From Haliclystus octoradiatus (Eukaryota; Cnidaria; Staurozoa; Stauromedusae; Haliclystidae), in the NCBI GenBank assembly GCA_916610825.1, contig OU744446.1, positions 33,709,436 to 33,773,435 of the forward strand: DNA of 64,000 bases. The letters are read 5' to 3'. A model generated the notes under the pieces. The model was not told the origin of the DNA, searched no databases, and worked only from the letters and a program-made list of their open reading frames with translations. Shown here one piece after another: positions 17,192 to 64,000 of the stretch. The first letter of the stretch is position 1. Each line of letters begins with the position of its first letter. The translations under genes and the position numbers were made by a program.

Positions 17192-17196
17192 TTACA

Positions 17197-36485: not shown

Positions 36486-36586
36486 TCATCGCTTAGCTGT
36501 TGGTGTAACATGCATGTCATATCTAGGGAATCTTGTTTCATCAATATCATCCGAATCTAAACTTTCAATGGGCTTTGTTGCTGCAC
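36486..36586 (-). CDS. Single-ILEI gene exon 6 (C-terminus)
   Basis: Two bases plus 32 codons and TGA: AATKPIESLDSDDIDETRFP to HVTPTAKR. AATTACAG acceptor with matching phase 1. Acidic short tail ending in a dibasic pair. Linked to exon 5 across a 3.2-kb intron; phase agreement and the lack of another candidate support this, but cDNA evidence is absent. Confidence 0.68.
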
Positions 36587-37438
36587 CTGTAATTAAAAAA
36601 ATGGAATTTCCTATACATGAAATAAAATAATGATGCTCAATAACGGTGTATCTACTTCAAATTACAATATGTGTACACATGCAGTTCGCTATAATTATAT
36701 TCTATGTATATTTAAATTGGAGAAGGGTCTTGCCGCCTATTTCAGAGAAAACCTTCTACTATATAAATGTCGATTTATGTCTGTTTGTATCTACTGTATT
36801 CGAGATTCACGCTTCTCATGGTAAACGTATGAAATCCATACTTTCCGTGGGGTATCTTATAAATTTTTGCGGCAACATAGGCCATGTTTTATGTTCATAT
36901 CTTTATATTCCTTCAATTGACGGCCCGAAGCGTATTTTTTCTTAGGATTTCTCTTGCGGCTCCATAGAAAGAACGAATTACATTCTCATGTTTGTCACGC
37001 AATATCTTTCGCACCCGACTGAAGGTTTCAGTTCTATTGTTTATTTATCACTTGGGCTAACTTCTAGCAATTAAATTTTCTATATTTCTATTTTCAAATT
37101 TCACCAAGCGTTGCTGGCTCACTTCACTAGTAATAAGATATAAAAGTTATCAAACTGATGTGAAATCCAGAGTAAAAGCCTTTTTTCTTAGCGTATATTT
37201 CTTGATTATGAATAGATCATGATCCGTGTTTTCTAACAATGCACATTGTACACAGTTCATCAAATTCAGTCATAAACTGATGATCCGGGAAAACAACAAT
37301 TTAGACAGCAAATCAATGGTTTATAAAATATGATTTATCAATTGTAATTGAGAAAGGATAATTTACAATGAAGACAAAGAATATTACATCAATGTAGACA
37401 GTAATTGACATAAAGTGAAAACAATTTAACGAAGTGTC

Positions 37439-37838
37439 TATTTGACCGGCAGTCGCAGCCATTATGGATTCAACTGCGCGTGCGCTGACAGTCAATTACG
37501 TCATTCACTCGATCACGTGTTTCACTCGTCCCAGTATTAGGGTTAGGTTTAGGGTCCGATCACGTGATCCACCCGTTTAGTGTTAGGGTTAGGGTCAAGT
37601 CACGTGATAACCACTCGGTCGAGTATAAATCCATTTCTGTTTCACTAGTTCTCGTCGGTTGGCGTAGCTCATTCGGATTGAGTCTGACTAGAGTGCAGGG
37701 TATGCTGGTTGAGTCCTGGTCGATCCGAGATTTTCATTTATTTTCATTATTTATATCCCGAAATGTTTATAAGTTACTGTTCGTTCATTATACGCATGCG
37801 TTGGTATCCATAATAGCTGCGACTGCCGGTCAAATTAG
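37439..37838. mobile_element. TIR element with telomere-like and E-box repeats and a tRNA-like segment
   Basis: ATTTGACCGGCAGTCGCAGC at 37,440 is inverted at 37,808-37,838 (TCCATAATAGCTGCGACTGC). Inside are two direct copies of a unit with CACGTG and TTAGGGTTAG (37,513-37,612), then a tRNA-like segment. Further CTGCCGGTCAAAT copies lie at 37,924-37,975, so several related termini may be stacked here. In intron 5 of the single-ILEI gene. Confidence 0.65.
37655..37730 (+). repeat. tRNA-like (SINE head) segment
   Basis: TTGGCGTAGCTCATTCGG resembles a pol III A-box region, and GGTTGAGTCC 45 bp further on resembles a B-box. The stems do not fold cleanly, so this is a tRNA relic or SINE head rather than a working tRNA gene. 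Confidence 0.45.
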
Positions 37839-38496
37839 TAATAGTTACAGGCGAACAGTCGAACATAGCGAATAGTCGAACATAGATAGTGTGACTTATA
37901 CATCTTTGCGCATGCGCTGATGACTGCCGGTCAAATAGCCTTGGCGCTAAATGACCGGCTGCCGGTCAAATAGTCACAGCGACAATTTAAATAGTTTGAA
38001 TGTATGCTAATCCTTGTGTTAGACAAGTAATGGTAATGCTCGTGGCAATGTGTTGACGAATCAGAAGCAGATTAAACCAAGACTAAATTGAACACTCTAC
38101 ATGGCCAACATATAAAAATAAGTGAAATCTCTAAAGCGAAAGGGAAAGTGGAGCAAAGCTACTCGTTGATGTAAGCTGAAAAAACTCTTTTCACAAAAAC
38201 TTATGTAATACTTGTAGCCTGATAGAGAAAGTTTTAATTTCTCTAAACTAGTAATGTAATGTTTATAAAACATTACTTCGAGACTATGGAAGCAACACAG
38301 TGTAGTGTTTGTTCTGGTATAGTAGTCAGCAGTACTGCTCAGTGATTAAGGAACTGAAAAACTGAATGGCGTGAAAAAAACACTTGTGTCATAAAGTGCG
38401 TGGTTTATGAGATATAAGAAATGTCCATACAAAAATTATGATAACGTGTCTTATACACTGTACATGAAGTGTTTCTACACTGCACATGTAGTGTAT

Positions 38497-38925: not shown

Positions 38926-39815
38926 GTACCCCGTTTGTCTGAAAGTTTGTGATCAGAAGTTCATTGCTACACTCGCAGCCTTGTACGTCAGATCGTAATC
39001 GTTTACCACGTCTGTTCTGTCTGTGTGCATCTGGTTTCCAGAATCTTAAGAAGACAAAAAATAGAACTACTACTGTCTGGATTGCGCAATGATTTGATAC
39101 AGTATGCACATACCATCGATAACGATTTAATTTTTATAGAATCTTCTCATTAGTGATACTATTTTTAAAATGTCCTTAACCATGCAATACCATTCAATGC
39201 TAGAAGCAAAAATGGTTTTTGAATTGGTATTGCAATATTTTTTCTCATCCTTACATTCTCATCGTAAATAATGTTCTCTTCTTCATTGAATGAAGTAATC
39301 TTCACATTTTGATTTGTAAATTAAAACATTGCACTGGATATAGCTAACATAGATACTTACGCTGCAATAAAGTTTTATCTGAAGTTCAATTAGAGAATAT
39401 GGATATATATCACTTTGATGTTCATCTCTGTTTGATTTAAGTTAAATTTCACTGGATTTCATCACATTTTGCATATACAACAGTCATCATATATTAGAGC
39501 TCAAAGCGATATACTGAGGACGTTCATAAATCTAAATCTGTTTAAAAGATCAAGTCTAGAAATATGTTTCTCATTCAAAGATTAAGGTGCTACAGATATC
39601 AACTAATTAACATTATATGAGGGATAAGAATGAAAGATGACCATATTGTACAAAACGTTGATTTTCCACTTGGATAATATGCTCCTTCGTAATTTCTTAA
39701 ATGTATAACTATCACAGGGGAATAACAAATATTAATTTCACGTTTTTCGTTTCCTTGGGAATGCAAGACAATGCCTCAGAAAAAACTGCTGGGAAACTAA
39801 TCTATGTGAGCTTAC
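38926..39815. other. Single-ILEI gene intron 5 remainder
   Basis: AT-rich; one short minus-strand ORF (38,804-39,109) overlaps the tandem repeat and has no recognisable domain. Nothing else seen. Confidence 0.4.
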
Positions 39816-41396
39816 CAAAGAAGTTGCGTTGTACTTCACCATATATTCCTTCTTTGTGATTCGATGATGTTGAGTATATATCTCTAGTTCCTTCTTCACC
39901 CTTATTTCCATAATAATATGTTACCATTCCATTAGGGTTAGCATTTTCAGCTGTCATTACTGACATATCATGTTTTTCTTTCTTCGGGCTGAAAGATTCA
40001 GTAGCGTCTGGTGTATTTATTGGTTTTCTATCAAAATCATGCTGAGAAAATGAATTTTCTCTCAACACTTCTGCTGGTGTTTGCGTAAGATGTAACTTGG
40101 CTAAATTAATTTCGTTAATGTCATCTTGTCTTTCCTTAGTTTCCTCTTTATTCCTACCCATAATGCAATTCTTTCGTCTTACTGCATCATCCTCAAATAT
40201 TCTCCTATTACTGGAACGTAACCTTGAATTACGTCGCTCTTTAGTGTCACAAGGATCATCAACCAAACCATTGCTGATAGTTCCATCTGTTGCAGTAATA
40301 TTCCGTTCATGATTTACATCTGTAGAATTCGTCTGGAGATTGTTATTCAGTTGGGCTCCTTGATTATCACCTAATTGATCGTTAGAGTGTGTGCTATTAT
40401 TACTATTCAATGTAACATCATTATTACTTGGGAGAGGTGGTGCTAAATCATTTCCTTCGACTGGATAAACGTTTGGTACATCTATATTAAGCAAAGGCGC
40501 AGAAGGTTTATCCCCACTCGCTTCCATTGGTCGTTCTTGTAGACGTCGATAACTAGGGTGCATTGAATCCTGATTTTGATTAACCGTTCCTTGGTTCAAT
40601 GCATCCGTGTATCCTTCTTCATTTCTCTGATGTATACCAAAGTGAGCATGTTTCCCTCCACTTCCCTTAGACATACCTAAAAGACCTGCTCCCATTTCAT
40701 CACCAATCGGTTCATTGTCAGCTTCTGGCTCTGTTCCCAGTGACTGCTGGAAATTGCTACCTTTCGCATAAGCCATTTTATTTCCAAGAGGATTCTTTGG
40801 TCCTTGTTTCTCGATCTCAAATGTTCCTCCGGCATTGCGTCCCTTATCCTTATTCCTATCTTGGTCTTTATCCTGATTTGCTTTGCGTTGCTCATTATTG
40901 CTTGCATCTTTATTGTCAGTGTTGAGAGCTGCTATTTTTTTGGCTTGTGGATTATGTTCATGTGCATCTTGCTTGTTCACTTTCTTTGGTTTTTCATTAG
41001 CACCTTTTTCCTCATCACTGCCTTTCTCTGTATTGAACTTAGATGCCTCTTGGCTATTGTTTTCTACACTGCTCTGGCCATCCTGTTGCGGTCTTTCGCT
41101 GTTCTGATTGTTGTTTATCTGGGCGTTCTCTGGTGATGGAGCTTTTTCTGTTGATACCTCAGCCAGGTCCTGTGATGGCTGCTTTTGAAGACCTTGATCA
41201 TTTTGTTCTGGACTTTCGGCACCACCTGATTCCTCAGGTTTTTTGTGTCTACTTGCTGTTGCAATTGGAGATTCATTTTCCATACCAGCATTGTACCCAG
41301 AAGCCATGCTTGATGGTTTGTAGATTGCTTTTGGCTTCGTCAAATCATACATGAAATTTCCTGAACCTCCAAATGAAATATATTCCCCTTTTGCAC
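39816..41396 (-). CDS. Single-ILEI gene exon 5 (C-terminal disordered region)
   Basis: 1,581 bases, phase 1 in and out (TTATTCAG acceptor, GTAAGC donor). Starts AKGEYISFGGSGNFMYDLTK. Extremely rich in Asn, Gln, Lys, Asp and Glu (for example NEQRKANQDKDQDRNKDKGR), then a patch with two Cys and clusters of Arg (CDTKERRNSRLRSSNRR) that could be processed by furin-like proteases. Ends VQRNFFG. No domain is recognised. Confidence 0.85.
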
Positions 41397-41576: not shown

Positions 41577-41724
41577 CTATAGCTGTTCTAATAATACTTG
41601 GTCCTTTACCAGGTGGACGTTGAACTTGTTGAATCCAAGGAACAACCTTCCTTCCTTTGTAACCAATAAATGCAAATGATGAACGTACGGCTTTTTCAAA
41701 CGGACCCTTGGCACCATATAGAGT
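41577..41724 (-). CDS. Single-ILEI gene exon 4 (ILEI domain, second part)
   Basis: Forty-nine codons plus one base, TLYGAKGPFEKAVRSSFAFI to GKGPSIIRTAI-G. Includes the FAFIGYKG strand corresponding to FAM3 WVFVGAKG. TTTCTAG acceptor, GTAAGT donor, phase 1. The paralogous exon of the neighbour gene (62,188-62,359) ends with GKGPSVISVVVDL. Confidence 0.88.
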
Positions 41725-42025: not shown

Positions 42026-42339
42026 CATAGCATCCCAACCTTCTTGCCCCATTTCTCCATTACTGTCACCTTTCGATGTAATCAAAACAACGTTTTCTCC
42101 TTCGAGACCCATTAAAAATGATGCCATTCTTTGCATTTCTTTTTGTTCAATACTAGTCAAAAAGGAATGACTGTACTTCAAATGAAAACCAGGGTAGCTA
42201 AGGATGACAATATTTAGACCGGAACCACCATGACTAAGCTCTTTTCCGTCTAGAATGATGGAGCCAATGGCTTTAGAACAGTCTTTGCCAAACACTGGAG
42301 CATCATCACAACCAGAAGACACTATTTGGATTGTATGAC
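42026..42339 (-). CDS. Single-ILEI gene exon 3 (ILEI domain, first part)
   Basis: Two bases plus 104 codons. Opens HTIQIVSSGCDDAPVFGKDC, matching the start of ILEI domains (R/Q-I-V-SSGC ... C). Then IILDGKELSHGGSGLNIVIL, the G-LN-V-V-L core strand, and GENVVLITSKGDSNGEMGQE. TTTTGTAG acceptor, GTAAGA donor, phase 0. The two Cys fit the conserved disulphide. Confidence 0.88.
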
Positions 42340-42734: not shown

Positions 42735-44708
42735 CTGTTGCGATCATTGGGAGTAATTTTGTTACTGTTTGTGGTAGAGTGTCAAGCATCTCTTGGCCAT
42801 ATTGCTTTGGTTTGTTTATGCTTGGTGGCACTTCATCTTGAGCAGCGTTGGTTGCACTTATCTGTGGTGTTTGTTTCTGTTTTATCTTCGCAGCAGGTAA
42901 TGGAGATTCCTCACTACTTTGTTGTTTAGCTACCTGTGGTGCCTGGTCAGCTGATTGACGATAGGGCTGACTTTCATCAGGTGAATAATTTACTGCTGCT
43001 GTATCCTGTTGTGGTGAACTGTATGCTGGCTTGTCTTCTTCTTTTTCATTGCCTGCTGGTTTTCTCACTTGGTTTTCATTGGATGTTGGTTTGCTTACTT
43101 GGTTCTCATTGGCTGCTGGTTTAAAATCACTACTAGCTTGGTTTGATTGTATGTTGCTATCTTCTGTTTCTTTTTGTTGCTGGTAAGGCTTGTCTGGATT
43201 ATGCAATTGGTCGTTCTGCTGCTGTTTCCCTGTTTCCTTCTGCTGCATTTGTGTTTGTTGTTGTCCATTTGAAACTTTTAATGATGTACTAGAGTAAGGC
43301 CTAGTATTTTTACCATTCGTCTTAACAGTTTTATATTGCCCTTTTGGTTCATCGTTATAATAACTTGTGGGTTGATCAAGTACACCATCCTCTTGATTAT
43401 ATATATCCTGAGTTGGGTTCCCGTCAGATTTTGATTGTCCAATATACGCATTTGGTACTCCTGTGGTAAGCTCTGGTGGTGGTCCTTCCTTGTGAAATTG
43501 TGGTCTGCCTTCATCTTTAGATGAAGCCTGATAACTACTACGGTCATCGGTAACGAATTTGATATCTCCCGTCCCAATTTCATCGCTGGTACTCAGCCCA
43601 AGATGTGGATCTCCATGATTCACTTGATTATCAAGATTAACCACTTGATCAGGCCTGTATGTTGGTGCATAGATACCCTGTGATGGAGCGAAAAACTGTG
43701 GCTCCTGCGCAGCCTGAATAGGTTGACCTGAATCAAATACTCGATTTGCTGCAAGGAACTTGTCTATGCCTGCTTGGAGTAATGGTGATTTCTCGCCACG
43801 CTTTTGTGGTATGGTAGTTTTTGGTGGTGATGGTTTAATCCTTCTAGAAATGGCCGCATTGAATGTTTGTGTCTCTATTTTTGGATTTAGGTTTTGGTTA
43901 TTTGCTTGATCCAGCTGCGAAGAGCTACTTTTCAACTGGTCTTGTGTAAGCTGTGGCTTTATGACAGGTTTAATATTATTCCTCTGTTGAGGATTTTCAT
44001 TCATGTAATTTTGAGGCATTAAATTCATCATTTCTTTTTCCACTATTCTATGTGGTATTGCTTTAACAGATGAAAATGTTCTCAAACTATTATCACGATT
44101 GCCTTGTGGTAGCATTGCTGCTGATTGAATTTCATAACGAGATGTTGGATTTATCGAGGGACTATTAGCATAATCACTTAATTCCATATCCTTTTCGATA
44201 ATGTGAACTTGTTTTCTAGGATCCATTGGTTTTAAATCAACCATACCATCGCGACGATAAAAAACTTGTCGTTGAGGAATTTCAAATCTTCTTTTCGGTT
44301 GAACTCGTGGTGACTTGTTTACTGTCGGATATACATTTTTAAAAGTTGATTTCAAATTCGGATGGCCTTTGATGACAGGTTTCAACTGTTTCTTTGGAAG
44401 ATTTGAATTTAAAATGGGTACTTTAACCTTATTTACCATATTTGCTATTCGTTGCGATGCTACTTCCATCATTGTTCTTCCAAGAGGGGTTTGCAATGGT
44501 GTTAAGCTTTTCTTCTTCGGTTTTGGTATTCCAAATAATTCTCTTCGTGGATAGTTACTCATTCCACGTCGCTTAGCAACAGTTGCTGCAAATGGTGTCT
44601 TTTCTTTAAGTTTTCGTGGTAACAATCTAGTAAATGATGCTAGGTAATTATATGGAAATGGTTTCTTTAATCCACTTACTTTGTTCTGGACCACAAATGA
44701 ATCCACAT
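42735..44708 (-). CDS. Single-ILEI gene exon 2 (N-terminal disordered region)
   Basis: 1,974 bases, phase 1 in and out (GTGTAG acceptor, GTAAAT donor). Starts VDSFVVQNKVSGLKKPFPYN, basic for the first 150 residues (many KK, RR and KPK), then rich in Gln, Asn, Pro and Tyr. Near the end (plus 43,030-43,130) is a tandem repeat of about 10 residues, KPAANENQV / KPTSNENQV / KPAGNEKEE. No Cys occurs in this region. The end LPQTVTKLLPMIATG may be an amphipathic helix leading into the ILEI domain. Confidence 0.88.
43030..43130 (-). repeat. 30-bp coding tandem repeat (KP-x-x-NENQV)
   Basis: Three diverged units code KPAANENQV, SKPTSNENQV and RKPAGNEKEE in exon 2 of the single-ILEI gene. Shows growth of the disordered region by tandem duplication. 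Confidence 0.8.
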
Positions 44709-45446: not shown

Positions 45447-45492
45447 CTATAACGATGTATAACATCAATAAAATAAATATCTCCAATCTCAT
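45447..45492 (-). CDS. Single-ILEI gene exon 1 (signal peptide)
   Basis: Fifteen codons plus one base, MRLEIFILLMLYIVI, a short hydrophobic signal peptide, ending at a GTAAGC donor in phase 1. A TTTTTTATTACAG acceptor-like site lies about 60 bases upstream of the ATG, so an upstream untranslated exon or trans-spliced leader is possible. Confidence 0.8.
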
Positions 45493-46416
45493 AATGAAAT
45501 ATATAGCAATGTTTATTTCTAATAAAATGTTTCTATACGTCTCCAGCAATCAAGCTGTAATAAAAAACAATTAGTAATCTTGAAATTCATATTTTCAACT
45601 GCATAGTTCTGTTCTATTTGTCAATCAACCATGTTTGATCAATACCATTCATGTATCCTACACATTAAAACAATTCTGTTTTTATTGCGTATAAAAATGT
45701 TTATTATCGATTTTTATCATCGGAACCATAACCGAGGTTTTGATAGACTTATTTCTGCGAGATTGGAAATCAATCAAGCGAATTGTTTGTGACTTTGTGC
45801 GTGACCGTGGATAAAAGTAAAACTGTTTCCAAAATCGAAAACTGAAGATCTTTCCTAACGTTTTCAGCTTGAATTTCATTCTTCATATATTTGCCTATTC
45901 AAAAAAGTTTATCTCTTTCATCCTCATTTCAAATTACAAAACTTTTGTTGAAAAAGAAATTTCAAATTGCAATTACAATTACAAGTTTTGATTGGGTGAC
46001 CCTCTAAATCACAAACTTGTATCCATGACAACTACATGACTGACGTTTCACGGTGAATTGATTTTTGAGCCTCTCGAAGCATTATAATTATCTATCTCGC
46101 ACCTAAAAATAGTTTATTTCAGCTCAAATAATCCACTATCTACCCCTAATTCAAGTATTTGTATTGGATTTTTTGAATTTTATTGTCATTAATAAGTTTT
46201 TATTTTACGGAGTTAAAGTGTTGACCTTCGCCCTCAACTGGTGGTGTTGTGACTTCGTTTTTGTTTCTCGTTCAAGCAAAGCTAGCCGGAGACGGGAATA
46301 TATTTCCACATAATACTATATTATATCAATAAAATAATATTTTTATCAATTTGAAAAACTTGTTACATATCGATGACATACTTTGGACACATGAATAGCT
46401 AGGATGTTTATAAACA
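45493..46416. promoter_or_regulatory. Bidirectional intergenic region between the two ILEI genes
   Basis: 924 bp separate the divergent start codons. It must contain both 5' UTRs and both core promoters, or a shared one. No clear TATA box at a convincing position can be assigned because the DNA is generally AT-rich. Head-to-head layout suggests co-expression. Confidence 0.55.
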
Positions 46417-46558
46417 ATGAAATTTATCACCATCATTACTTATATGGCAAAATGGCTGATGGAGAAGAAAATATTATTATTACTCTTAGTTATGATAGTG
46501 GCAAATACTCATTGTTATGTTATAACAGATGATGATGATAACAGTGAAGAAGAAAACG
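46417..46558 (+). CDS. CTLD-ILEI gene exon 1 (signal peptide)
   Basis: Forty-seven codons plus one base from ATG 46,417. A Met at 46,459 gives a more classical signal peptide: MEKKILLLLLVMIVANTHC, then the acidic TDDDDNSEEEN. ATGs at 46,417, 46,444 and 46,459 are all in frame, and the start is undecided. GTATGT donor, phase 1. Confidence 0.75.
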
Positions 46559-47509: not shown

Positions 47510-49345
47510 ATGACTTCACAGTGGGCAAGACACGTGATACAGTAGCCACGAAAGAAGACCCAGACGAAGACTCAAAATGGGTATCACATTTAGTTTCATC
47601 TCAAGAATCAAAAGGCTCAAATTCATCACAAAATTCATTTGATGTTTTATCTCGTGGATTTAACCGATTTTCATCACCTAATAAAGAATTATCAAATGAA
47701 AAAGTTAAGGAAAATACACCTGACGATAGGCAAGAGAGTTATGAAAGAGATGCTGGAATTGATGATGATAGAAACTGGGAGACGAAGTCTGATTCACAAC
47801 ATAATGGAGAACTTGCTATACATTTGGAAAATGAAGCTATATCTACACAACTCGCAGCTATTGAAGAAGAAGATAATAGCATGAAATCATTAATGAATAA
47901 GAAAGGAAAAGCTGTTGAAAATGCTTTACCAAATGAAGTATTAGATAAAATGGTTACAAACGCATTTGATGAATCCATTAAACGTGAACGTGAAAAAGAT
48001 GCGGCTGATATGAGAGATCCTGATTTTAGTAATAGACGTCATGATAATGGCGATGACATAGAAGATGATAACTTAGCTCAAGAGTATTATGACTCAGATA
48101 ACTCAGATAAACCCAATAGTAGATTACGTAAAGGACGAAAGAAACCGAAACCGGAAGCTTATAAAGATCAAGATTCATCAAAAAGACAACATTTATTGCG
48201 TAATAATAATGACTCACAAAATTTGAAATCAAATATAACTATTTCAAAATATAACAGAGCTAATAATAATCACTCCTTAGCGTCAAAGGCATCGCATGGA
48301 CATGAATTTATAAAAAACAGAAGGCCAGCTTATAAGAGGAAATCATCCTATCATAAACTCACTGCTAATAAGATAGTCTCTGAATCGTTGATGAAAGCAA
48401 ATAACACTGTTCGAAATTCAACTCTAGATGGAATTCGGAAATTATTTTTTCATTCTAAACCAAGTGAGATTACCAACCTTGTAAAAGAGAAGAAAAATGT
48501 TACTATTGTTCAAGATGAATCTAGAGAAACAATGAAAAATAATAAACTAATTGATAACTTCGTTCATTTTGTAAACGGTATTTCAAATGATCACAAAAAT
48601 AATTCACTAGATACAAAACTTGATGACAATATCTTGCAAACCAAAACAACTACAGAAAAATATAAAAAAATTCAATCAAAATTTGTGGATGAGCCAGTTG
48701 CTGAACTGAAAAATGATACTCTACGATCAAATGAAAGAATTATAAACAACAAGCATAAAAATATATCACCAAAGATAAGCAATAATAACAATACAAAATC
48801 CAATTTAACTATCACTCAACAAAACAAACAATATGCTCAAACAGACAATAACAGAACTAGGATAGCAGAATCTACAATGGCTGCTATGGCTCAAGCAACG
48901 TCAAATAAAATAACATTAGGTTACAAACAATTGGATGTACTACGGAAAGCATTCATTAAACAAGCTAAACACATTGGTAAAGGTAATCATACATTTGCGT
49001 CATCTGGGAATAGTTTCAAACGTTTTCAACTGCCAGGATCTACTGCATTAAGAAACAGTTTTAACATGAGAGATATCCTATTAGCTTATAGCACGCTCGA
49101 TCCTCATGAAAAGAACCAATTTTTATTGACAGTTAACGAAGATGGTTCCAAAAAGAACGAATCAACAACGGTATCACTCAATGGTATGAACAATGGAGCA
49201 AATAATACGACCAACACGAACACATGGCCAGGAAGAGCATCTTCCAGACTCCATGCTGAATTTGAAAGTTCATTACGTGGCGATCCAAGTAATGATGGTG
49301 ATAAAAAGAACAAAATGGGTGAATTACCTGAGGGGTTAACCGGTG
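47510..49345 (+). CDS. CTLD-ILEI gene exon 2 (acidic/Asn-rich region)
   Basis: 1,836 bases, phase 1 in and out (GTTATAG acceptor, GTACGT donor). Begins DDFTVGKTRDTVATKEDPDE. Charged and Asn/Ser/Lys-rich (for example NNNTKSNLTITQQNKQ), with many N-x-S/T sequons. It lacks Cys, so it is probably disordered and possibly N-glycosylated. A near-C-terminal stretch KQLDVLRKAFIKQAKHIGKG could be helical. No known domain. Confidence 0.85.
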
Positions 49346-50185: not shown

Positions 50186-50417
50186 CCATGTCATACACAA
50201 ATCGTGATGGTCGAGAGTTCTTATTTGCTGTCGGAACGGAAACATTGACATTCGCTGAGGCTAGAACAAAATGCAAGTCACATGGTGGAGATCTTACTAG
50301 TATTGGTGACAAAGAAGAACATGAGTTCGTAACAATGAATGTTGTGCCTGAACCTGGTAATTACTGGATTGGATTCACTGACCAAGCGATAGAGGGCACA
50401 TGGGAATGGGCAGATGG
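50186..50417 (+). CDS. CTLD-ILEI gene exon 3 (C-type lectin domain, first half)
   Basis: MSYTNRDGREFLFAVGTETL, then TFAEARTKCKSHGGDLTSIG and YWIGFTDQAIEGTWEWADG, the canonical first half of a C-type lectin fold, including the first conserved Cys and the WIG motif. Ends with two bases (GG) at a GTAAGT donor. The start is chosen by phase and by the match to CTLD starts. Confidence 0.8.
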
Positions 50418-50718: not shown

Positions 50719-50770
50719 TAACGACAATGATAATGGATGTGTGAACCATGCTTGTTGTCTGTACATCTGT

Positions 50771-52039: not shown

Positions 52040-55000
52040 GACACCCGTGAGATTTTCCAATTGGAGTAATCTAGAACCAGATGATGGGAACATGAAAAGT
52101 GGTGAAGCAGCTCATAATGAGGATTGTGCTATTTTAAAATCAACTATGGATTGGAGTGATGTTCCATGTTGGAGTAAATACAAATACATTTGCAAATTAT
52201 ACCCAAATGGTGTAGGAAGTCCATCTGTCTCTTTCGGAGGTCCTCTTTCAGAAGAAGGAGTAGAACAAGAAAAGATGCATCACAATAAAACTGGTGATGA
52301 ATGGGGAATTGCACCCGCACTAGGTGGACAAGGAGGCTGGATGGGCTCAAAGAACGGGGGGCCATCCGTAGCCGAGAAGGATGCGGGTGGACAGGCTTTG
52401 AAGAATAATCCCGATTCATCAGGTCTTGGAACACAAACAGCTCAATCATCAGATTCTATGAAACCAGAAGCACAACCGCAAATAATGCAGTCGCAGGCTA
52501 GTCCTATGGTACTACCACAAACAGTTCAGCCCGTAGCCCAGCCAGTGCCCCAGCTTCAACATCAAATTCAATTGCCCCCTTTGAATCAGTATCAAGATTC
52601 TAATTCGATGACAAACCAACATTCTATAGAAACAGCCAACATTCCAGTTTTGCACACTCCACCCCAGCAGTATCAACAAAGTCAAAGTATTCAACCTTCA
52701 GCCAATATCCCAACAAATTTACCCATCAATATACCAGCCAATGTACCAGTTCAACAGCAACTTCCACCATACAAACCCTTGCCCTTGACATCTGAAGGTG
52801 ATGTTAAACTTGGTGCTGGTGCATTTGCCATAAGCAATACTTTAGACCATCTTCAATCTCCAGATACACCTTCATTTCAAACTAGAGCAGAGGGTATAGG
52901 GCAACGTGTATCTCCTGGTGACACAACATATCAGCACCCAAAAGAATTGGACGCAATGATGCCATCTGTTAATAAAAACAATGCTGATTATATCTTCAAT
53001 ACATTATCAAATTCTGCTCAGAAAGAATATCAGCGTAAAAATGACTTTGTTCAATCCCTAAAAAGTGTCTTCAATGCTCGTTTCAGAGAAAGAGAAAAGG
53101 GACCGCAATCAGGAAAGGAAGACTATCTTTCTTTCGGGAAGGATCCTTCAGCGATGATTAGAACGCTCCGTCCTCGAGAAGTTAACCCTACTTCAAGAAA
53201 ATTAAGTGATGCATCTCAAACCAGTGATGGTGACTCTAGAACTACAAAGCCTAAATCTCCTGTAGCTCCTCTAATGGGATATAAACCAAACAAAGGAAAA
53301 GTAATTGCTGGCGGAAATGGTGCTCCATCAGTTCAAGATGTTCCTCTACCCGAACCATCAGTAAACGGCTCAAACGAACCAACTGGAAATAAACTAGCAT
53401 CAAACGGTCGGTTGATGCCAGCACAGCAATTCCCTCCTCATATGCAAACAGGCCTACAGCCTGGAAAAGTTTCGTCAATATCCCCAGTTAGTTATGGTAC
53501 CCCTTTACAACAACCTGACCAGCCAATACAGTCGGCACCAGTCATACTTCCTCCCATGCCTTTGGCTGCAGATCCTGTAAATCCTGTGAATCCTGTAAAT
53601 CCGGTAAATCCGGTAAATCCTCCTCCTCCTCAAAGTCAAAATTTAAATGGACTACTCAATAACACACCAGGTCATACCCTTACTGGAGTAGAACCTCCGT
53701 CGGGTCCAACCAGTTCCGGAAATAATAATAACATCGTTGTAGCTGCTGAACCAAATGAAAATCCACTCCAAAAAGCTGTGTCCCTGCCTGCAGAATCCCA
53801 AAATACTCCACATATAGATATTGCTAAATTACCTATTATCACTCATAGACATGGCAAATACGACCAAATGGTGGAGGCGTTGCTTTCTGCTAGTAAACTT
53901 GCTAATAGAATTGTCCCAGGGCTTCTAAAAGATTACTCAGAGAGATTTTCTCCTGATATTGATGTTGTTAAGGATGTGTGTGGGAAAATGTGTGGTGATA
54001 CTGTTTCCAACCTTCAAGTTGGTGATCCTGAACAGATTGGTACCGTATGCGGTAGGCTATGTGCACATTCTCTTCTGAAAATGAACCCGCAAGAGGTACT
54101 TACGCTACTGCATGAGCTTGGTCACCATGAAGAAATGCATGCAGTCCAGCCACCACTAGCTGTGCCGTGTAACCCAATGCCACCACCCTACAACCCAGCA
54201 ACGTCAGATCCTCCATGCCATGGTGCCTTACCACCAGTAGTACCACAGGCTCATTTAGATCAAGTTGTACCAAATTCAGTTCCTCTGCAACCCAGCGCAG
54301 CATTTGTTCCTCCTCCTCCGGAGCAAATTAAAACAGCAAACGTTCATGATGCTAAGCTTTCTTCTGCAGCAAATGAGTTTACAGACGCGTTAAATAATTT
54401 TATGAAAACGGTGAAACCAGATACCAATCTAGCAATTGAGCAGGCACATGCTGTTTCCCATCCTGAGGGATATCAAGAACAAGCAGTCCATGCAGGACTT
54501 GATGGTCTCACGTTGACACAATACGGAACTCCTCACTCGCAATATGGTATGGGTGGTTCATTCGGTGGCCCTTTTCAACAAACTTTTGGTTTACATCATC
54601 GAATGGATTTCACAAGCCCAACTAGACGATGGGCAGGAGCAGGTAGCTTTATTAATCCGTTGAATATGAACCCAGAACCAGTTCAAGATACTTCACCACA
54701 TTATCGTCATATACTGCACCATCGTTATGCCCAGGCGCATTCAAGATTTGGAAGAGTTTTTCCTCGAATTCGTGATATACAAATGAATCGGTATGATAAG
54801 GATTTTTTTGGTCCATATTACAAAGAATTATCAAACCCATACTACAAGAGCTCTGCTGGTGTTCCAAACAATGATGGTTCTATGGTAATACCTACACGTG
54901 ATGTTGGTAGCTTTGCGACACTTCAGAAACCTACTTACAATCCTGCTGGAGAAATCGATGCCCAATTATACAACAAACGAACATCACCTAAACGTCATCA

Positions 55001-55110
55001 TCCTTTACCTCAAATAAGCTCCAGTGGTAATGTTTACCGAAAACGACCAATTTCTAACATTGAGAATCCTGCGATACAGCCAAAGATATCAGTGTTTGAT
55101 CACAGACAAG
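52040..55110 (+). CDS. CTLD-ILEI gene exon 4 (lectin second half, Pro/Gln-rich region, twin CX3C)
   Basis: 3,071 bases. Begins TPVRFSNWSNLEPDDGN, then EDCAIL, WSDVPC and YICKL, completing the lectin fold with three further conserved Cys. The calcium-site tripeptide reads EPD rather than EPN/QPD, and WSD replaces WND. About 960 Pro/Gln/Asn-rich residues follow, including a 9-bp tandem array coding (NPV)n at 53,574-53,625. Near 53,970-54,060 is a twin CX3C helical segment (VCGKMC ... VCGRLC, 18 residues between pairs), followed by Pro/Cys-poor and His/Tyr/Arg-rich stretches. GTATTA donor, phase 1. Confidence 0.86.
53574..53628 (+). repeat. 9-bp coding tandem repeat, (Asn-Pro-Val)n
   Basis: Units of CCTGTAAAT / CCGGTAAAT repeat about five to six times, coding NPVNPV..., then end in a Pro run. 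Coding microsatellite within exon 4, a likely length-polymorphic site. Confidence 0.85.
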
Positions 55111-56350
55111 GTATTAATCATTTGCTTACATATCGACTGTAAACATATCTGTATGACAGATGATATACTCTCTGTCTGTATGACAAGACATCATATCTAC
55201 AATGTATTGATAATTATATTGATCTCCCTATAGTTACAGTATATGTACTTTCCTGCATATTAGAATGGTCCAAAAAAATGAAAGTTTGAAAGTTGAATTG
55301 CATTCTCGATTCTATTTTTCTTGTGGGTAAGAAAACCATAAATTCAAAATTTGAGTTCAAAGACATATTGGGAAATGGGCGCTCACTGCCCTTCTAAATT
55401 AATACACAAAGTCATTGGGAAAAACACTCCAAAATTTCAAAAACATATAATTAAATGTCGGTGAGGTATTTTTGAATAGTTTTTTATGTCTATGAAGGTA
55501 ACAATCTCCGAAATATCACTGTGGCATCTAAAAGTCTATTGAATGAGAACATATGCTGAAAATGTGTGTTTCAAAGTGATGCATTTGAATGCATGGCTTC
55601 CCCTTTGATTTTGACAGAATATAGTGGTGTGTGGTTTTTATAAAACTAAAAACAGATATCAAATGGAAAGGTGTTGACATATTCAGTTTTTCTCGAACTT
55701 GGGATAATTGCTTATGCATTCATTTCCCAACAAAAAGGTACAAAAAACCACTGTCCATATCAGTTTCCAATAATTCTTTGACAAATCATACTAAATTGAA
55801 ATAAAAATCTGTCAACACCTTCACAGAACAGAAAACGTACACTTGTATGATCTGTCAAAATCACAGTGGAAGCCATACATTCAAATGCATCACTTTGAAA
55901 CACAAATTTTCAGTATATTTTCTCATTCAATAGACATTTAGTAGATGCCACAGTAATATTTCGGAGATTGTTAGCTTCATAGACATAGGAAACTACTCAA
56001 ATATACCTTAGCAACATTTAAATATATTTTTTCAAATTTTGAAACGTTTTCCCCATTGACTTTGTGTATTAATTTGGAGGGGCAATGAGCGCCCGTTTCC
56101 CAATATTTTAGAACATTAAAATCAAGAATGTAATTCAACTTTCAAGCTTTCATTTAATTGGCCCCTATACTGTATATAATAGTATCATCATCTTGCATAT
56201 TTAATTATTCATTATGGCGTTGCTTCTGTAATATTCTCATTTCAATTAAACAATGATAGACGCATGTTATTTGAAAATTGAGAAATTGATGAATTTTTAA
56301 TGTTTTCTCTATATCTGAGATAAAATGTATAATTGCTTTTCATATTTCAG
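55111..56350. other. CTLD-ILEI gene intron 4
   Basis: Almost entirely occupied by inverted repeat 2. The coding frame of exon 4 runs ten codons past the donor before a stop, so an unspliced form would end HLLTYRL. Confidence 0.55.
55267..56164. repeat. Long inverted repeat 2 (intron 4)
   Basis: Left arm about 55,267-55,682, right arm about 55,808-56,164, loop about 125 bp. Matching blocks include GGGAAATGGGCGCTCA with TGAGCGCCCGTTTCCC, CAATCTCCGAAATAT with ATATTTCGGAGATTG, and GGTGTTGACA with TGTCAACACC. The arms differ by small gaps. Confidence 0.87.
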
Positions 56351-56542
56351 ATGCAGAAGAATCGATAAAATCACTTCATCAGAAGACTCTCCAGAATGCA
56401 AATTCAAAACCGTCTATGCTATCATTTTACCCTAGACCAAGCAATCATGTCCTATTGGTCAATAGCATTCTATTGCATCGTCCTAATCCTATCACAGAGT
56501 TTACTGAAACTGGGATGAAGCGCGGTTTACCGGGGGGAGAAG
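56351..56542 (+). CDS. CTLD-ILEI gene exon 5 (linker)
   Basis: AEESIKSLHQKTLQNANSKP to GMKRGLPGGEG, 192 bases, phase 1 in and out. ATATTTCAG acceptor; the donor GTACAA is weak. Contains MKR, a possible processing site. No domain. Included because it is open and phase-compatible on both sides. Confidence 0.65.
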
Positions 56543-57825
56543 GTACAACGTATCACCGTTTTCATTGATTTATGATGCAAATTACTTCCATGATTACTTC
56601 GTATTGCAAAAATTAAACTCATTATTTATAATATACTTTATTTATCATAAATATTTGTTCATTTGAAATATCTAATTTATTAATTCGTTTTGTCTGATAA
56701 TTTTGATACATCCTATCTAAATTTGTAAATAACTCTGAACATTCAAATGGTTATGTCTCGATTTGTATGCATGAGCTATTGTTACATAGGTCTAGTTCGC
56801 AGTTATTACGGATAACTTATCCGATATTCGATGTAATGTACTTGAGTTTCGAACAAGGATACATTATATTTACAAGGACATCATGATAATTTTATAGTGA
56901 GATGCAGAAGAAGCCATAAATATTCAATTTTTCTTTATGTTGATCAATTTCTCAATCAATAACGCCTAATATGAATAGACTTTCCAGTTATAAGAAAGGA
57001 AACATTCTAACAAAATTTGCAGCATGCTTGCTAGGAAAACATTTTCATGTCACTCGATGAACATTTTAATTCCAGATGTGCCTTCAGAATAGCTTAGTTT
57101 GAGCTGATCCTAATTTTTTATAATAGAGGAACTGTTTAGATTAGGAAGGAAAAAAACATGTATAGATGTTTCTCTGTAGATGTTTTCTCTGTGTTTGAGT
57201 ACAGGTAGGTTGAGATCTTACAATTTCGGAAGACAATACAGTAGCCAAATCTTTTTTAACCATTTCGCTTTTTTAATCTTGGCTATATATTTTCTGATAA
57301 TGATGCAGAAATGATGTCACATGCAAACTAGTGCCAGACCTTTCTTCAAAAAATATGGGCACTCTTAGAAAAGCCCGCTGTAAACTTAATTTGCAAAATT
57401 ATTAATTTTATCTGCTGGTGGGTTAGCCTGCTCGCAGACTCACTTTCAAAAGGTAAACTTGGTACACAATAGAGTCTGCTAACTCGAAGAAAAACTTGCT
57501 TTTTCTGATTCAGCTCGGTGCGTGAAAAGGTGTAAAAACTATTGTCTATAACGGGCTGTGATTCAACATCAAGATTTTCTGATGACGAATCAGCGAAGAG
57601 TATTTTGAAGAGAGGCTTTGGTTGGCTAGACTACAATAACCAACTATTTTCTAGCAAACTGCATGCCTTTTGAAATCGTTTTGAATATTTCGGATAAACT
57701 TCAATGCCAAGAACTGAGAATTATCATCATTTCCAAGACGTGTTGGAACCATAAACTGCCATATTTGCACTACTTCGTGTTCAAAGTGATATTTTATGCA
57801 CTCTTGACAATCATGGTTCTGTAAT

Positions 57826-59105
57826 TCTCCTTTTGTTAGATCTTTCTGCAGCGTTTGATACTGTTGATCATTCAATTTTGTTATACCGTTTATCCACCAG
57901 ATTTGGAATCAAAGGTGCTGCTCTTGATTGGTTCTCATCGTATTTAACTGGTCGTGAACAGTTTGTTTCCATTAATAATTCCAGATCTTCATCAAAACCC
58001 CTTCACTTTGGAGTACCGCAAGGATCAGTGTTAGGACCAATTTTAAATCTTTTGTACACAGCTCCAATTGGTGATATTTTAAGAAAACACAGCGTGCCTT
58101 TCCATCTATATGCAGATGACATTCAAGTTTTTGTAACTTTTCAACCATCGACCAATGGCGAACGTGAATCCGCCATTCATCAAATTGAAGCATATGTTGC
58201 TGAAATTGATAGCTGGATGACGGCCAACAAATTAAAATTAAATAAAACAAAGACTGAACTAATTTATATACATTCACGTTTTATTCATCAATTTAGTCCA
58301 ATTTCTATTAATTTTAGTGATGAGTGTATCAGCCCAACAACATCAGCACGCAATATTGGTATCATATTTGATCAACATCTATCGATGACTGAACATATTA
58401 ATAAAGTATGCAAATCTTCATTCTTTCATCTTCAACGAATTTCCAAAATCCGAAAATTCCTTGACTTCACCACCACAAAAATATTGATACATGCATTTGT
58501 TAGATCAAAATTAGACAATTGTAACTCTTTATATTATGGTCTAAATAAATGCTTAATTAAAAAATTACAACGTGTCCAAAATACGGCAGCAAGAATTATT
58601 ACACTAACTCGAAAGTATGACAGTATAACACCAGTATTGTATGAGCAACATTGGCTCCCAATTGAGCAACGGATTATATTTACAATAATATTATTAACTT
58701 TCAAAGCATTACATGGCCTGGCACCACTCTAATTACGAGATATTTCAATTAATTGCTGCCCATCAAGATGTTTTAGATCATCATCAATTAATTTACTAAC
58801 TGTTAAAAAATGCAATTTGAAATCCTCTGGTGCCCGGCTCTGGCGACAGAGCATTTTCGGTCGTTACTCCAATTTTATATGGAGTGGCCTTCCTGATGAC
58901 TTGCGTAATTGTCACTCTATAACGATATTCAAGACAAAGTTAAAAACGTACTTATTTGTTATAGCCTATAAATATATCATATATTTATGTTTAAAATTTC
59001 AACTATACATATATAGTTTAATATAGATCTAGTTCAACAGAAAATGTACAGAACACAACGATATAGGCGCTATATAAATGCCTTATTATTATTATCATTA
59101 TTGTT
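57826..59105 (+). mobile_element. 5'-truncated CR1/L2-like LINE
   Basis: The reverse transcriptase region starts abruptly at [19 protein letters not shown], contains VPQGSVLGP, the intact catalytic [11 protein letters not shown] and the HWLPIEQRI block, then after one in-frame TAA (58,730-58,732) continues to GLPDDLRNCHSITIFKTKLK. The 3' end CGCTATATAAATGCC followed by (TTA)n is characteristic of CR1/L2-type elements. Confidence 0.88.
57833..58732 (+). pseudogene. LINE reverse transcriptase fragment
   Basis: 299-residue open frame beginning inside the fingers/palm and covering the palm and thumb. It lacks the endonuclease and N-terminal RT blocks, and a premature TAA replaces a residue before LRDI. 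The YADD catalytic Asp pair is present. Not a host gene. Confidence 0.85.
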
Positions 59106-60008
59106 AATTGCATCAATTATTTTTACTCAAATCTCTGATTAGTCTTAAAAATGTATGAAATGTTTTCGATCGTGATTGGACAGCGTTTTTATTCAAAAGC
59201 TACTACAAGTGGAGAGACACGCTACGAAAATAACATTGCAAGGAAAATTAATTCAACAAATAACAATCACTGTAGCTCAGCTATTGGTTGAGCCACTGTT
59301 TGGTCATATTCTCATTTAAATTATGATTACAGATTTACTCTATATTTTCTTCGTTCATTCGACAAAATAAATTTGTCACGCGCATAATTTTAAAGTTCGT
59401 TGTGGTTCTTTGATGGTTGGACTCGTTGGTCTTGTTCTGGGTTTGACTTTCATGGCCAAGCATTCCTTTCGAAAGTGAGACGTCCAATTTTCATGCCCCA
59501 TGCTGGATCAGCAAAAACAAGCTTTTGTCTTAGGGCTAGCAGACTCTACTGCTTAACAAATCTACATTTTGACATTGAGTCTGCGAGCAAGGTACTGATT
59601 GATGTACCTTGACATATTTTCTTGGATTCTACCATGTGCTTTGATTGGAAAAGAAACAAAAAGGTTATTCCATAAGATTTTTAAAACTTTCCAAAAGCTA
59701 CAGCTACAGCTACAGCGTGACTTGTATTTAAATCTTCAAAACACCACAACTTTTAGTATTCTCTTCATTCAAAAGAAGTACATTGTAGAATGCAAAAAAA
59801 TGTCAAGGTAAAATAATCAGTAGAAAAGTTAAGGCTTTTGTAAAGCAATTTTACATCCAACTTTTTCAAGATCGCCCATATGATTTGATGTGAGCCTGTA
59901 ATGTGTTTTCTTAAGTGAACTGTAGAACAGACAAATTGCAGATAATATTTAGAAATTACTGATACAGATCGACAAATTCTCACTAATATTTTCTCTTATG
60001 TCTTATAG

Positions 60009-60337
60009 CAAAGAAAAAGAAACAGATACGTCTCACCATTCGTTCATCTGGCTGTTTTGATCCACCATATCATGGCGTCAATTGCGAAGATACAGTAGCA
60101 TCAATCGAAGTAAATGGTGTAGAAGTCAGTCCTAATCGTCAAGGATTTAATTTTGTTGTTGTTGATTATAAATCTGGGCAAGTGGACCGTGCTGCGTCAT
60201 TCAATACTCATGGAGATTCAGGAGCTTATGCAAAACTAGAAAAATTTATTAAGGAGTTACCACCCTGGAAAATTATTTGTGTTGCTGTTAAGGAAGATGG
60301 TAAGAATTACCTTCCATCCACGGCAGCTCAAACATTG
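60009..60337 (+). CDS. CTLD-ILEI gene exon 6 (ILEI domain, first part)
   Basis: Two bases plus 109 codons. KKKKQIRLTIRSSGCFDPPY ... NCEDTVASIEVNGVEV ... GFNFVVVDYKSGQVDRAASF ... IICVAVKEDGKNYLPSTAAQ. The IRSSGC-to-C pair and the G-x-NFVV strand define an ILEI/FAM3 domain. CTTATAG acceptor, GTATGT donor, phase 0. Confidence 0.88.
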
Positions 60338-62187
60338 GTATGTAAAATTTATTTAAATTGCACCACTTTAAATATGAATCAGTTTATTTTCTATAATCCT
60401 CAATTTCATTGAGAAAATCCTTGGTAATATAATTCCCTGTTTAATTATATTTTTATCGCATTATTAGTGCTTAAAGCAAATAATGTAGATGTTATCGCAG
60501 TAAGAAAACCTTTGATGCTGCTGGCCTGACATGTATTTCGTCCCTGCCAAAGGATTCATTAGCGGCCTTTCATAGCTCGTTAGTCATGGATGGTGACTAA
60601 ACAAACAAAACTAAAGCAAACATAAATAAATAGCCTAAAAAAATATACTGCCAAATATAGAGAAACTGTAAACATTACTAGATAACATTTTCTGTTTTTA
60701 AAAAATGATTCTGAAGCCTCATTGTTTAGATCGAAGGTGTTATTAAATTAATTAAAAGTTTCTTTGTAAAACATTTTAAAGCAAAAGATAGCGACAAAAA
60801 ACTACAAGTAGTGGTTGTTGAAAAATTTTCGGTATTATACATTATACCATCGTCAGTTCAAAAGAAAGAAATATTAATTTACAAATTACTTATAGGCTGA
60901 GGATCTAAAAACTTAATACATTCTAATTGTTAAAAATAGTGCTAAAAATAAAACAATGAAACAGAATGGAAACCTATTCAATTACAATATGTTCTATCAT
61001 GCATATATTTACAAAAGGAGACGAGAACGGATAGACTCACTCTGAGTGTTGAGAGTCGGTTTCCTTTCTCGGATGATTAGCATTTCGTGAACCAAACAGT
61101 CAAACTTGTTCTTACATTTTCTCACTACTGAAAACAGATGTTGTGAATCACTGATAGTCCTATTGTGTGAATGTAAGTGTCGTCCGACAGCCGAGCTCGA
61201 TCCACCGTGTTCGGCAATGCGTTGATGAATAAGACTATCAGTGATTCACACAATAGGACTATCAGTGATTCACAACATCTGTTTTCAGTAGTGAGAAAAT
61301 GTAACAACAAGTTTGACTGTTTGGTTCACGAAATGCTAATCATCCGCGAAAGGAAACTGACTCTCAACACTCAGAGTGACTCTATCCGTTCTCGTCTCCT
61401 TTTGTAAATATATGCATGATAGAACATCTTGTAATTGAATAGGTTTCCTTTCTGTTTCATTGTTTTATTTTTAGCACTATTTTTAACAATTAGAATGTAT
61501 TAAGTTTTTAGATCCTCAGCCTATAAGTAATTTGTAAATTAATATTTCTTTCTTTTGAACTGACGCTGGTATAATGTATAATACCGAAAATTTTTCAACA
61601 ACCACTACTTGTAGTTTTTTGTCGCTATCTTTTGCTTTAAAATGTGTTATTAAATGATGAAAATATTGCAAACCTATATAATGAATGTTCTTAATAGTGA
61701 AGAATTCTCCACCCGATATCAGGATGTCTCCTTCTATTCAAAACTTGAATTAGATATTAATAGATATAGGACGAAATAAGTGTTTGATTGTATACCTTAA
61801 TAAGTCTCCTGCAGGTATTAGTGTTGGTCTTGTTATTAAAAACACTATTATCTTACTTATTACCATCCGTATGTATAGTATAGCTTTTTCTCTTTGAAGC
61901 TGGCAGTAAAATTCATCTTGAAAAAACGTGCATGTACTCTGGAATTTAAGCATTTCTTTACAATACGAAGCGATATATGAAGTAAACTGCATACTATTCT
62001 CAATGGAACTACATCTAGAATGAATATTGAAAAAGTATTTCTTTATTCTCCTAGTAGCGAGTTTTTTCTTGATTACTGAAAACATGTCCACGTAATAAGC
62101 TATACTAAAAAGATATTTTGTTCAAACCAAACAGTTATGATATATAAGCAGCATCTAATTGAACATCAACCATCTTTCTTGTTTTAG
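60338..62187. other. CTLD-ILEI gene intron 6
   Basis: Holds inverted repeat 4 at 60,771-61,644. The rest is AT-rich without recognisable features. The intron splits the ILEI domain at the same place as in the neighbouring gene. Confidence 0.6.
60771..61644. repeat. Long inverted repeat 4 (intron 6) with 12-bp flanking direct repeats
   Basis: Arms of about 400 bp (60,771-61,175 and 61,240-61,644) are nearly perfect complements, for example AAAGCAAAAGATAGCGAC with GTCGCTATCTTTTGCTTT, around a loop of about 60 bp with GC-rich sequence. The identical 12 bp GTGTTATTAAAT lies at 60,737-60,748 and 61,644-61,655, compatible with a target duplication. Confidence 0.92.
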
Positions 62188-62359
62188 AAAAAACTTGGTG
62201 CTACAGATATCGTCACTTCTGATGTTGAGTATAGAGCGGCATATGCATTGGTTGGTTTGAGTGGGCCAGCTGATGTGGTAGATAAGGTACCTTGGAAACG
62301 AGAGGAACTTAGTAAAGCTGGTAAAGGACCAAGTGTTATCAGTGTTGTTGTTGATCTAG
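62188..62359 (+). CDS. CTLD-ILEI gene exon 7 (ILEI domain, second part)
   Basis: Fifty-seven codons plus one base, KKLGATDIVTSDVEYRAAYA to GKGPSVISVVVDL. The AAYALVGLSG strand corresponds to the FAM3 VFVGAKG strand. TTGTTTTAG acceptor, GTGAGT donor, phase 1. Confidence 0.88.
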
Positions 62360-62602
62360 GTGAGTATAATTATATAACGAGGTTTTACTATTGATTGATT
62401 TCTGAATATCCAATATTCTTGATACTAAACTTGATTCAAACATGGAAAGTGTTATATTTGGTTTTAGTGATATGATACCTTTTGAAACACAGATCTCATT
62501 GTTTTTGTAACTCAGTTGTTCTCAAACATTTACTTACATGTCGAAATTTTTTCTTCGTCAGATGATTGGATGATTAAATTGTAACACATTACTTTCTTTC
62601 AG
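62360..62602. other. CTLD-ILEI gene intron 7
   Basis: Short intron, nothing recognised. Confidence 0.5.
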
Positions 62603-64000
62603 ATGCTCTTTATAGCAACACAAAACCTCCACCAGGGCTTCACGTACCAGCATTCAGCTTTGAAACACTTACAAGCAACTCCCAAAAAGGAGGTGATAAA
62701 ACTGATTCCGGTAGTGATCCATCAACAGAAATGTCCCCTGGATATGTGGACAGCGTTGCAGCAACATCACATCAAAAAGAAGCTGGAGCAGTAGCTGGAG
62801 ATAGTCAGGCTACGGCGTCTGTTGGTGATGTCGGGGCTGTTCCAAGCGCTGGTGGTCCAAGTGTTTCGTTAGGAGGAAAAGATACTGACCAGAAAAACGA
62901 AAGTGAAAGTAAGCAAGGAACGGAAAGTAAGCAATCTTCAGAGAGTAAGCCATCTGATTCATCAGAAACACAAAAGAATACACCACAAAGTGATCACCAA
63001 TCGACACCTAATCAAGGTGTCCAACAAAGCCAATCAAAAGGTGACCAGGGCATGAGTAATGGTTTTGGTCCAGGTGGTGAGGGTTTACAAGGCAATAATC
63101 CAACAAATATTGCTTCTTCAGCTTTAACTCAACCATCGCCCTCTTCTGGAATCGACACAAAAGATATCAATAAGCTTGTAGCATTGGCTGATGCATTGGG
63201 ATATGGAAAGGACAAAACGATGCCTGGAATGGGTGATCCCGGTGCTATAAAAAAGTTGATTGCCTTAGCTGATGCAGTTGGGGTTAGCAAGTCACCTGAT
63301 CCAGCAAATCAACAAATCGCTACCCAATCTACTGGTATTCAAAAAACTCTAAATCCTAGCACTGCATCTTCTAATGCTGGAAAGTCCCCTTCAACAACTT
63401 CTACAGCTTCAGCATTACCAGTTAAAGATTCACAACTTCCTCAAGGAGAGTTTACCGCGTTAGAATTACAAGCAATGACTAAATTAATGGAAAGGATGGG
63501 CCTAAAAGGAAATTCAATGTCACAAAATCAAATTGCTATGTTTGGCAATGCTAATGCAGCTAGCAATTCTCCTTTGATTGCAGGGGCGATAAATACGCCA
63601 GTTGCTCAGTTACCTTCGAATGCCATGTTACGTCCAGGTATAATGGCACCTTCATCTCTGTTGCAGCAAATGAACCCATCTACAGTAGTTAATCAGCAAG
63701 CTGCTTCTTTTCAGCCTTGGCCTTTAATCCAAGGAATGTCATCGGCCGGTGGTATTACAGGAGAAGGAAGACAATTACAAGAATCAAGTATGCTAAGACC
63801 GGAAGCATATACTGGAGCTCTCCAAACAAATGCTGATGTTTCAGCCGTACCTCATAGTCTTCCGGTAGCAGCAGAAGCTGTCCAACCAGCTGCGACACAA
63901 GCCTTGAATATGCCAGCTCCAGATCCTGCAACTACTTCTACTCCTGCTTCAGCCACGGCTGCTGCATCAGAAACAGTGACTGCCGTACAAAATACTCAAG
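62603..64000 (+). CDS. CTLD-ILEI gene exon 8 (low-complexity tail, partial)
   Basis: Open from a CTTTCAG acceptor to the window edge, 465 codons. DALYSNTKPPPGLHVPAFSF, then Gly/Ser/Gln/Lys-rich sequence (repeated ESKQ, SESK), then two copies of a helical repeat, INKLVALADALGYGKD (63,164-63,211) and IKKLIALADAVGVSKS (63,247-63,294), and a weaker third, MTKLMERMGLKGNS (63,475-63,516). Pro/Ala/Gln-rich sequence follows to the edge. Confidence 0.85.

Follow-up and report, generated by a model that had tools for sequence, protein, structure and literature searches.

In the stalked jellyfish Haliclystus octoradiatus, what is encoded by two very large genes that stand head to head on chromosome 1, each with an ILEI domain and one with a C-type lectin domain (CTLD) as well? 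We address this for a window of 64,000 bp (C1:33709436-33773435; chromosome 1, C1, has 39,977,743 bp), by which we mean the whole stretch of DNA that was analysed, and for the DNA past its end, labelled L009, into which the plus-strand gene continues. The genome searched comprises 261.9 Mb in 33 contigs; the assembly, jrHalOcto1.1, is given in parts of its report as 262 Mb in 33 scaffolds, with a chromosome 1 of 39.98 Mb and a mitochondrion of 18.3 kb (PMC9975415). A sequence-only reading had proposed that the pair forms a glycan-binding matrix or coat system. We give about even weight to a different proposal, in which both genes would encode secreted mosaic proteins that serve as multivalent extracellular scaffolds.

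First of all, the divergent arrangement is confirmed. The start codons lie at 45492 (-) and 46417 (+), and the 924 bp between them (45493..46416) would be a shared promoter region if both genes are co-regulated; since the head-to-head placement only suggests co-regulation, the claim of a system is not borne out. By frame length and codon-position composition the long exons are coding: the longest stop-to-stop frame has 1,042 residues, where 100 Markov copies of 36486-64000 reach 173 at most, and GC by codon position in long exons takes values such as 0.57/0.44/0.27. Scans of the window for Rfam families and for tRNAs gave no matches. Behind each start codon come a hydrophobic stretch (with a best 9-residue mean of 3.30 in the minus and 3.79 in the plus protein) and then a phase-1 donor, in agreement with the signal peptides read earlier, and both proteins are probably secreted. 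Their giant size also stands, with models of 3,121 residues for the plus gene and 1,354-1,387 for the minus gene. Exon borders were picked by a generic splice score together with phase, so that phase agreement is not throughout independent evidence.

The plus gene is modelled as 12 exons from 46417 to L009:5451, joined by 11 GT-AG introns into a single open frame that runs beyond the window end. Exon 1 (46417..46558) carries the start codon and signal-like peptide and ends in a donor scoring 3.9, and exon 2 (47510..49345) encodes a 612-residue region that is rich in Asn, Lys and Ser. Profile match and splice score place the first part of the CTLD in exon 3 (50186..50417) and its end (about 52040-52230) in exon 4 (52040..55110, the end at 55110 being uncertain), which continues as link 1, rich in Pro, Ser and Gln. 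Beyond a 4.9 kb intron, in which a reverse transcriptase fragment is found (RVT_1, 81.5 bits; 57755-58732, +), ILEI module 1 is divided between exon 5 (60009..60337) and exon 6 (62188..62359), the latter assigned by splice score and by the spliced ILEI match. Exon 7 (62603..64000, on to L009:987) is by composition the Ser/Ala/Gly-rich link 2, and a codon split at L009:987 gives a cysteine at the start of ILEI module 2, which together with the C region occupies L009:1730-5451 (main module exons L009:2785-3324). ILEI 1, link 2 and ILEI 2 are connected by plausible splice sites.

The minus gene has five modelled exons, all on the minus strand. Exon 1 (45447..45492) holds the start codon and signal-like peptide, with a donor score of 5.5; exon 2 (42735..44708) is a long open frame of about 658 residues, rich in Gln, Pro and Lys; exons 3 (42026..42339) and 4 (41577..41724) carry the two parts of an ILEI module; and exon 5 (39816..41396) encodes a C region whose composition is rich in Asn and Glu. 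The acceptor of exon 3 (42339) was taken for phase and lies outside the best six by score, and exon 4 was assigned by splice score and the spliced profile match. Five exons to 39816 give 1,354 residues, and a tentative last exon (36486..36586) would extend the protein to about 1,387; if it is left out, the stop is that at 39802-39804. The acceptor of this candidate exon (5.0) is one of 22 above 1.5 in the scanned stretch, a single one of which, at 38130, scored higher (5.7).

The domain assignments hold beyond the curated Pfam cut-offs of 27 bits for ILEI (PF15711) and 22.6 bits for Lectin_C (PF00059). Unspliced single exons already give 27.9 and 49.5 bits for ILEI and 46.5 for Lectin_C; once spliced, ILEI module 1 reaches 68.7 bits (profile positions 1-89 of 90), module 2 66.8 (2-89) and the minus module 48.4 (1-89), and the CTLD of the plus gene reaches 84.2 bits (2-106 of 107). 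The earlier count of one ILEI domain per gene is right for the minus gene; the plus gene has a second one past the window. Relatives in the PDB are FAM3B (1.4e-5), CEMIP2, FAM3C and POMGnT1 for ILEI 1, with POMGnT1 (0.00069) the best for ILEI 2 and FAM3B (0.0041) the best for the minus module, and those of the CTLD include the PLA2 receptor, mannose receptors and aggrecan. Apart from the intronic reverse transcriptase, other Pfam matches in the searched exons have E-values of 0.13 or worse only. All three ILEI modules fit phase-1 borders and an internal phase-0 intron, the borders having been picked partly for phase. By blastp, the two proteins share a single match, between ILEI 1 and the minus ILEI (25.8% over 163 columns), and the plus protein against itself gave no matches at E 1, ILEI 1 versus ILEI 2 included. 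In a tree of 23 ILEI sequences over 93 columns, the minus module groups with plus module 2 at a support of 85 and plus module 1 joins them at 49, with long branches.

Second, we consider whether the CTLD and the ILEI modules belong to one transcript, which is likely from the gene model. The alternative, which we regard as rather unlikely, is that a CTLD protein stops after 55110 and that a distinct ILEI-link2-ILEI protein follows, the fusion being an artefact of modelling. In its favour, the exon 4 donor at 55110 scores -0.4, a level reached by 10% of the 3,379 GT dinucleotides in the window, and its frame is closed by a stop at 55142; polyA-like motifs occur from 55450 onward, and the 4.9 kb intron between link 1 and ILEI 1 contains the reverse transcriptase fragment. 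On the other hand, none of the six candidates in 55143-60009 with an ATG and a hydrophobic stretch has a phase-1 donor above 2.5. The first ILEI exon itself has no ATG ahead of the domain and is entered in phase 1, and upstream phase-1 donors at 55026 (1.0) and 54642 (3.3) offer other joins to ILEI 1.

Third, the sugar-binding argument needs to be weighed. According to PMC9802357, the stem of human POMGnT1 contacts N-acetylglucosamine (GlcNAc) through R129, D179 and R207; the POMGnT1 stem, FAM3C, FAM3A and the Fam3L2 domain of FAMP-1 bind GlcNAc or other sugars, and sugar binding was not seen for FAMP-1 Fam3L1, in which D179 and R207 are missing. We located R129, D179 and R207 in the POMGnT1 segment from the distances between them (50 and 28) rather than from a structure. 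At these three positions of the alignment, the modules of the window have Q/E/R, P/G/K and S/G/R, so that by sequence the R129, D179 and R207 set of POMGnT1-type GlcNAc binding is not conserved in them. The segments of FAM3B, FAM3C, CEMIP2 and POMGnT1 all read R/D/R, as do seven of the eight full-length ILEI frames elsewhere in the genome, the eighth being R/N/R; four of those seven are near-identical tandem copies at C4:5.007-5.019 Mb. The residue comparison covers ten frames and six exon pieces among 24 ILEI matches, a further three of which are those of the two genes and five lie outside it. Both partial frames retain D and R; of the pieces, two at C1:39.16 Mb have R and D and two on C8 have R and E, and at the first position a POMGnT1-like piece has R and that at C1:38.89 Mb has L. 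Glu at the second position therefore occurs elsewhere in the genome too. The five matches outside the comparison (L018, L019, L020, L021 and L024) were judged by motif: Asp follows Gln in four and Glu takes its place in L019, and of the four extending as far as the R207 site, three have YR and L018 does not. Charges are also found nearby in the window modules: an acidic residue follows at a distance of one position (KED, KGD, KGD), and in both plus modules an Arg precedes by one position. These neighbours could partly stand in, and altered ligand binding by the window modules is possible.

A coat or matrix in which CTLD and ILEI modules bind sugars and cross-link glycans is, in light of this, unlikely. 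Binding by the related domains argues for it by analogy, as does the pairing of ILEI with SUEL lectin exons at another locus. A further point in its favour is the CTLD. At their Ca2+ site, classical C-type lectins carry EPN or QPD together with an E and with WND; by eye, the CTLD reads EPD, NED and WSD and would retain part of that site. The substitutions in all three window ILEI modules, set against R/D/R in most full-length genome frames, stand against it and weaken the argument first drawn from the POMGnT1 stem. The glycan mechanism thus appears weaker than first proposed, and a scaffold role would be the most economical reading of the sequences.

The setting of ILEI elsewhere in the genome is in line with a structural use. 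The profile search placed PF15711 in at least 24 places and Lectin_C in at least 79 (61 on C5), counted exon by exon. At C1:39.15-39.17 Mb (L012 1343 to L013 9395), one strand carries four VWA exons, a basic repeat rich in Gly, Lys and Arg, an ILEI-SUEL-ILEI series and a further SUEL exon; the SUEL exon of the series is situated downstream of the VWA exons and has phase-1 borders, and both ILEI first exons there end in a phase-0 donor, as those of the window modules do. Another ILEI exon, at C1:38.89 Mb, has as neighbours a MAM exon scoring 54.9 bits and a laminin-G-like exon whose 26.6 bits fall just short of the cut-off of 27.6. On these grounds, ILEI looks like a mobile, exon-bounded extracellular module in this genome, with the window pair as one instance. 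When 14 lectin matches on ILEI-bearing chromosomes were merged into nine loci, leaving aside 65 matches on C5, C6 and C7, which have no ILEI, two loci lay within 20 kb of an ILEI match, where random placement gives a mean of 0.03; the test had been prompted by the window, which is itself among these two. The other is at C4:2.027-2.029 Mb, where the CTLD is just upstream of exons that by eye resemble a seven-transmembrane receptor. In that region (L038-L040, C4:2026610-2038213), a single-exon ILEI frame stands 1.6 kb upstream of the CTLD exon and may be a separate gene. The tandem array at C4:5.007-5.019 Mb (L001-L004) consists of four near-identical single-exon ILEI frames with, by eye, signal-like starts.

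Between the modules are the long linkers, described earlier as hundreds of disordered residues rich in Gln, Asn and Pro. Long biased linkers are indeed present; their composition differs by region, the N parts being rich in Gln/Pro/Lys (minus) and Asn/Lys/Ser (plus), and the reading as disordered is based on composition and on a simple, crude scale. On that scale 73-95% of linker residues are disorder-prone; it separates linkers from domains poorly, because ILEI 1 (65%) and the CTLD (53%) also rate high. A Cys-containing stretch in link 1 (53793..54164) has no Pfam match and, like an Ala-rich stretch in link 2, no match in the genome besides itself. The single-sequence AlphaFold2 model of the Cys-containing stretch shows helices at low confidence (mean per-residue confidence, pLDDT, 50.5; predicted template-modelling score, pTM, 0.36) and, being too uncertain, was not used. 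A peptide precursor was considered and set aside, since RX[KR]R sites are absent from both proteins and G[KR][KR] occurs three times in total.

These features are accommodated most simply by the scaffold proposal. The long low-complexity linkers would carry small folded modules, one ILEI in the minus protein and one CTLD and two ILEI in the plus protein. The chains would be exported and form extended scaffolds in an extracellular layer, which might be mesoglea, surface mucus or adhesive secretions, with the folded modules holding the network together. The CTLD would perhaps contribute Ca2+-dependent binding, and the ILEI modules would act less by GlcNAc binding of the POMGnT1 type than by contacts between proteins or by way of a changed ligand. 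Several points weigh against this proposal. The join of link 1 to ILEI 1 depends on a weak splice donor. A polymerising domain was not found in the exons searched, a few small exons lying outside the search. The support in the tree does not suffice for a claim that the window ILEI modules duplicated locally. A glycan-rich, N-glycosylated scaffold was rejected: sequons are not enriched overall (25 in the plus protein against a shuffled mean of 30.5, and five against 13.0 in the minus), with the plus N part mildly up (16 against 11.9, reached by 124 of 1000 shuffles). Finally, the two proteins have 40 and 28 dibasic pairs, so that some processing is possible.

A bolder extension, in which the ILEI fold of stalked jellyfish was turned into a shuffled structural module and the two genes are co-expressed partners of one adhesive or mesogleal material, their ILEI modules binding each other, is decidedly unlikely as a whole. 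Four CXXXC pairs occur in the plus protein, a spacing also seen in minicollagen cysteine domains. An origin in cnidocytes or nematocysts as structural proteins would also suit the finding, in parts of a Nematostella study, that 85 of 176 cnidocyte matrisome genes are cnidarian-specific (PMC12549020), and is nevertheless very unlikely: neither protein has a CXXXCXXXC or a run of four Gly-X-Y triplets, and cysteines are few (20 in the plus and four in the minus protein). That the proteins are cytokine-like FAM3 signals with unusually long tails is highly improbable, for although they share the domain of FAM3B and FAM3C, they have hundreds of low-complexity linker residues and several domains, and changed ligand-site residues, and ILEI stands beside adhesion-type domains at two other loci.

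Other features were noted in passing. Arrays of the palindromic 11-bp unit AGTTCATGAAC recur in the window (3563-3901, 6414-6908, 10344-10438, 16984-17408 and 26828-26995), and pieces at 13447-16513 (-) resemble by eye a gypsy-type retroelement. The intron of ILEI module 1 contains a 406-nt inverted repeat (60767-61172 / 61244-61649; 98% complementary, 71 nt spacing), with a frame that by eye resembles one at L009:6228-6620. Downstream of the plus gene (L010, about 3.6-7.5 kb) are very long trinucleotide microsatellites with poly-Asn/Ile/Leu/Tyr frames. The mitochondrial contig (C33; 18,316 bp) has a cox1 with eight in-frame TGA, two tRNAs (ARAGORN) and, at its ends, frames that by eye resemble DNA polymerase.

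Most work on ILEI/FAM3 domains has concerned cytokine-like factors of vertebrates and glycan enzymes that contain such a domain. With at least 24 ILEI matches in one cnidarian genome, some beside lectin or VWA exons, and with the sugar site kept in some and changed in others, a natural comparison for the function of this fold is at hand. Staurozoans attach by glandular adhesive regions, according to parts of PMC5088631; work on staurozoan adhesive proteins was not among the open-access literature matches listed. The adhesive of Hydra includes galactose-binding lectins, in a paper with no occurrence of ILEI or FAM3 (PMC5080974), and the main text of the cnidarian matrisome study has no occurrence of ILEI or of lectin (PMC12549020). 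Neither "ILEI domain" nor "interleukin-like EMT inducer" occurs among the literature matches listed, and a CTLD-ILEI fusion was not found described there, which agrees with the earlier statement that none of this size is known.

How, then, do the two genes compare with known systems? FAM3A-D are secreted proteins of about 230 residues that share the ILEI domain; the two models exceed this length about 6-fold and 14-fold, and with their long linkers, large size and, in one, a CTLD, the predicted proteins fall outside this family of small single-domain secreted proteins. The size first given as normal for FAM3 proteins is right for FAM3A-D; larger ILEI proteins are known in POMGnT1, the cell surface hyaluronidase and FAMP-1. 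The POMGnT1 stem and CEMIP2, the cell surface hyaluronidase, resemble the window genes in carrying, within a larger protein, an ILEI that matches those of the window in sequence; unlike the window genes, both are enzymes and retain the R/D/R contact residues. The locus at C1:39.15-39.17 Mb, whose exons are compared as neighbours that may form a single gene, resembles the window in its phase-0 ILEI first exons and in that low-complexity sequence and domains of lectin and adhesion type accompany them, and differs in having SUEL in place of a CTLD and in keeping R129 and D179 in both ILEI first exons. C. elegans FAMP-1 (M70.4), like the plus gene, has more than one ILEI domain (two, FAM3-like) and, like the window modules, one of the two is without two of the sugar-contact residues; unlike the window genes, it has a C-terminal domain likened in its description to the catalytic domain of POMGnT1, and the available parts of its account mention no CTLD or long linkers, both of which are modelled for the plus gene (PMC9802357). 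The architecture is genuine and unusual and apparently new as a combination, assembled from extracellular modules that are themselves known.

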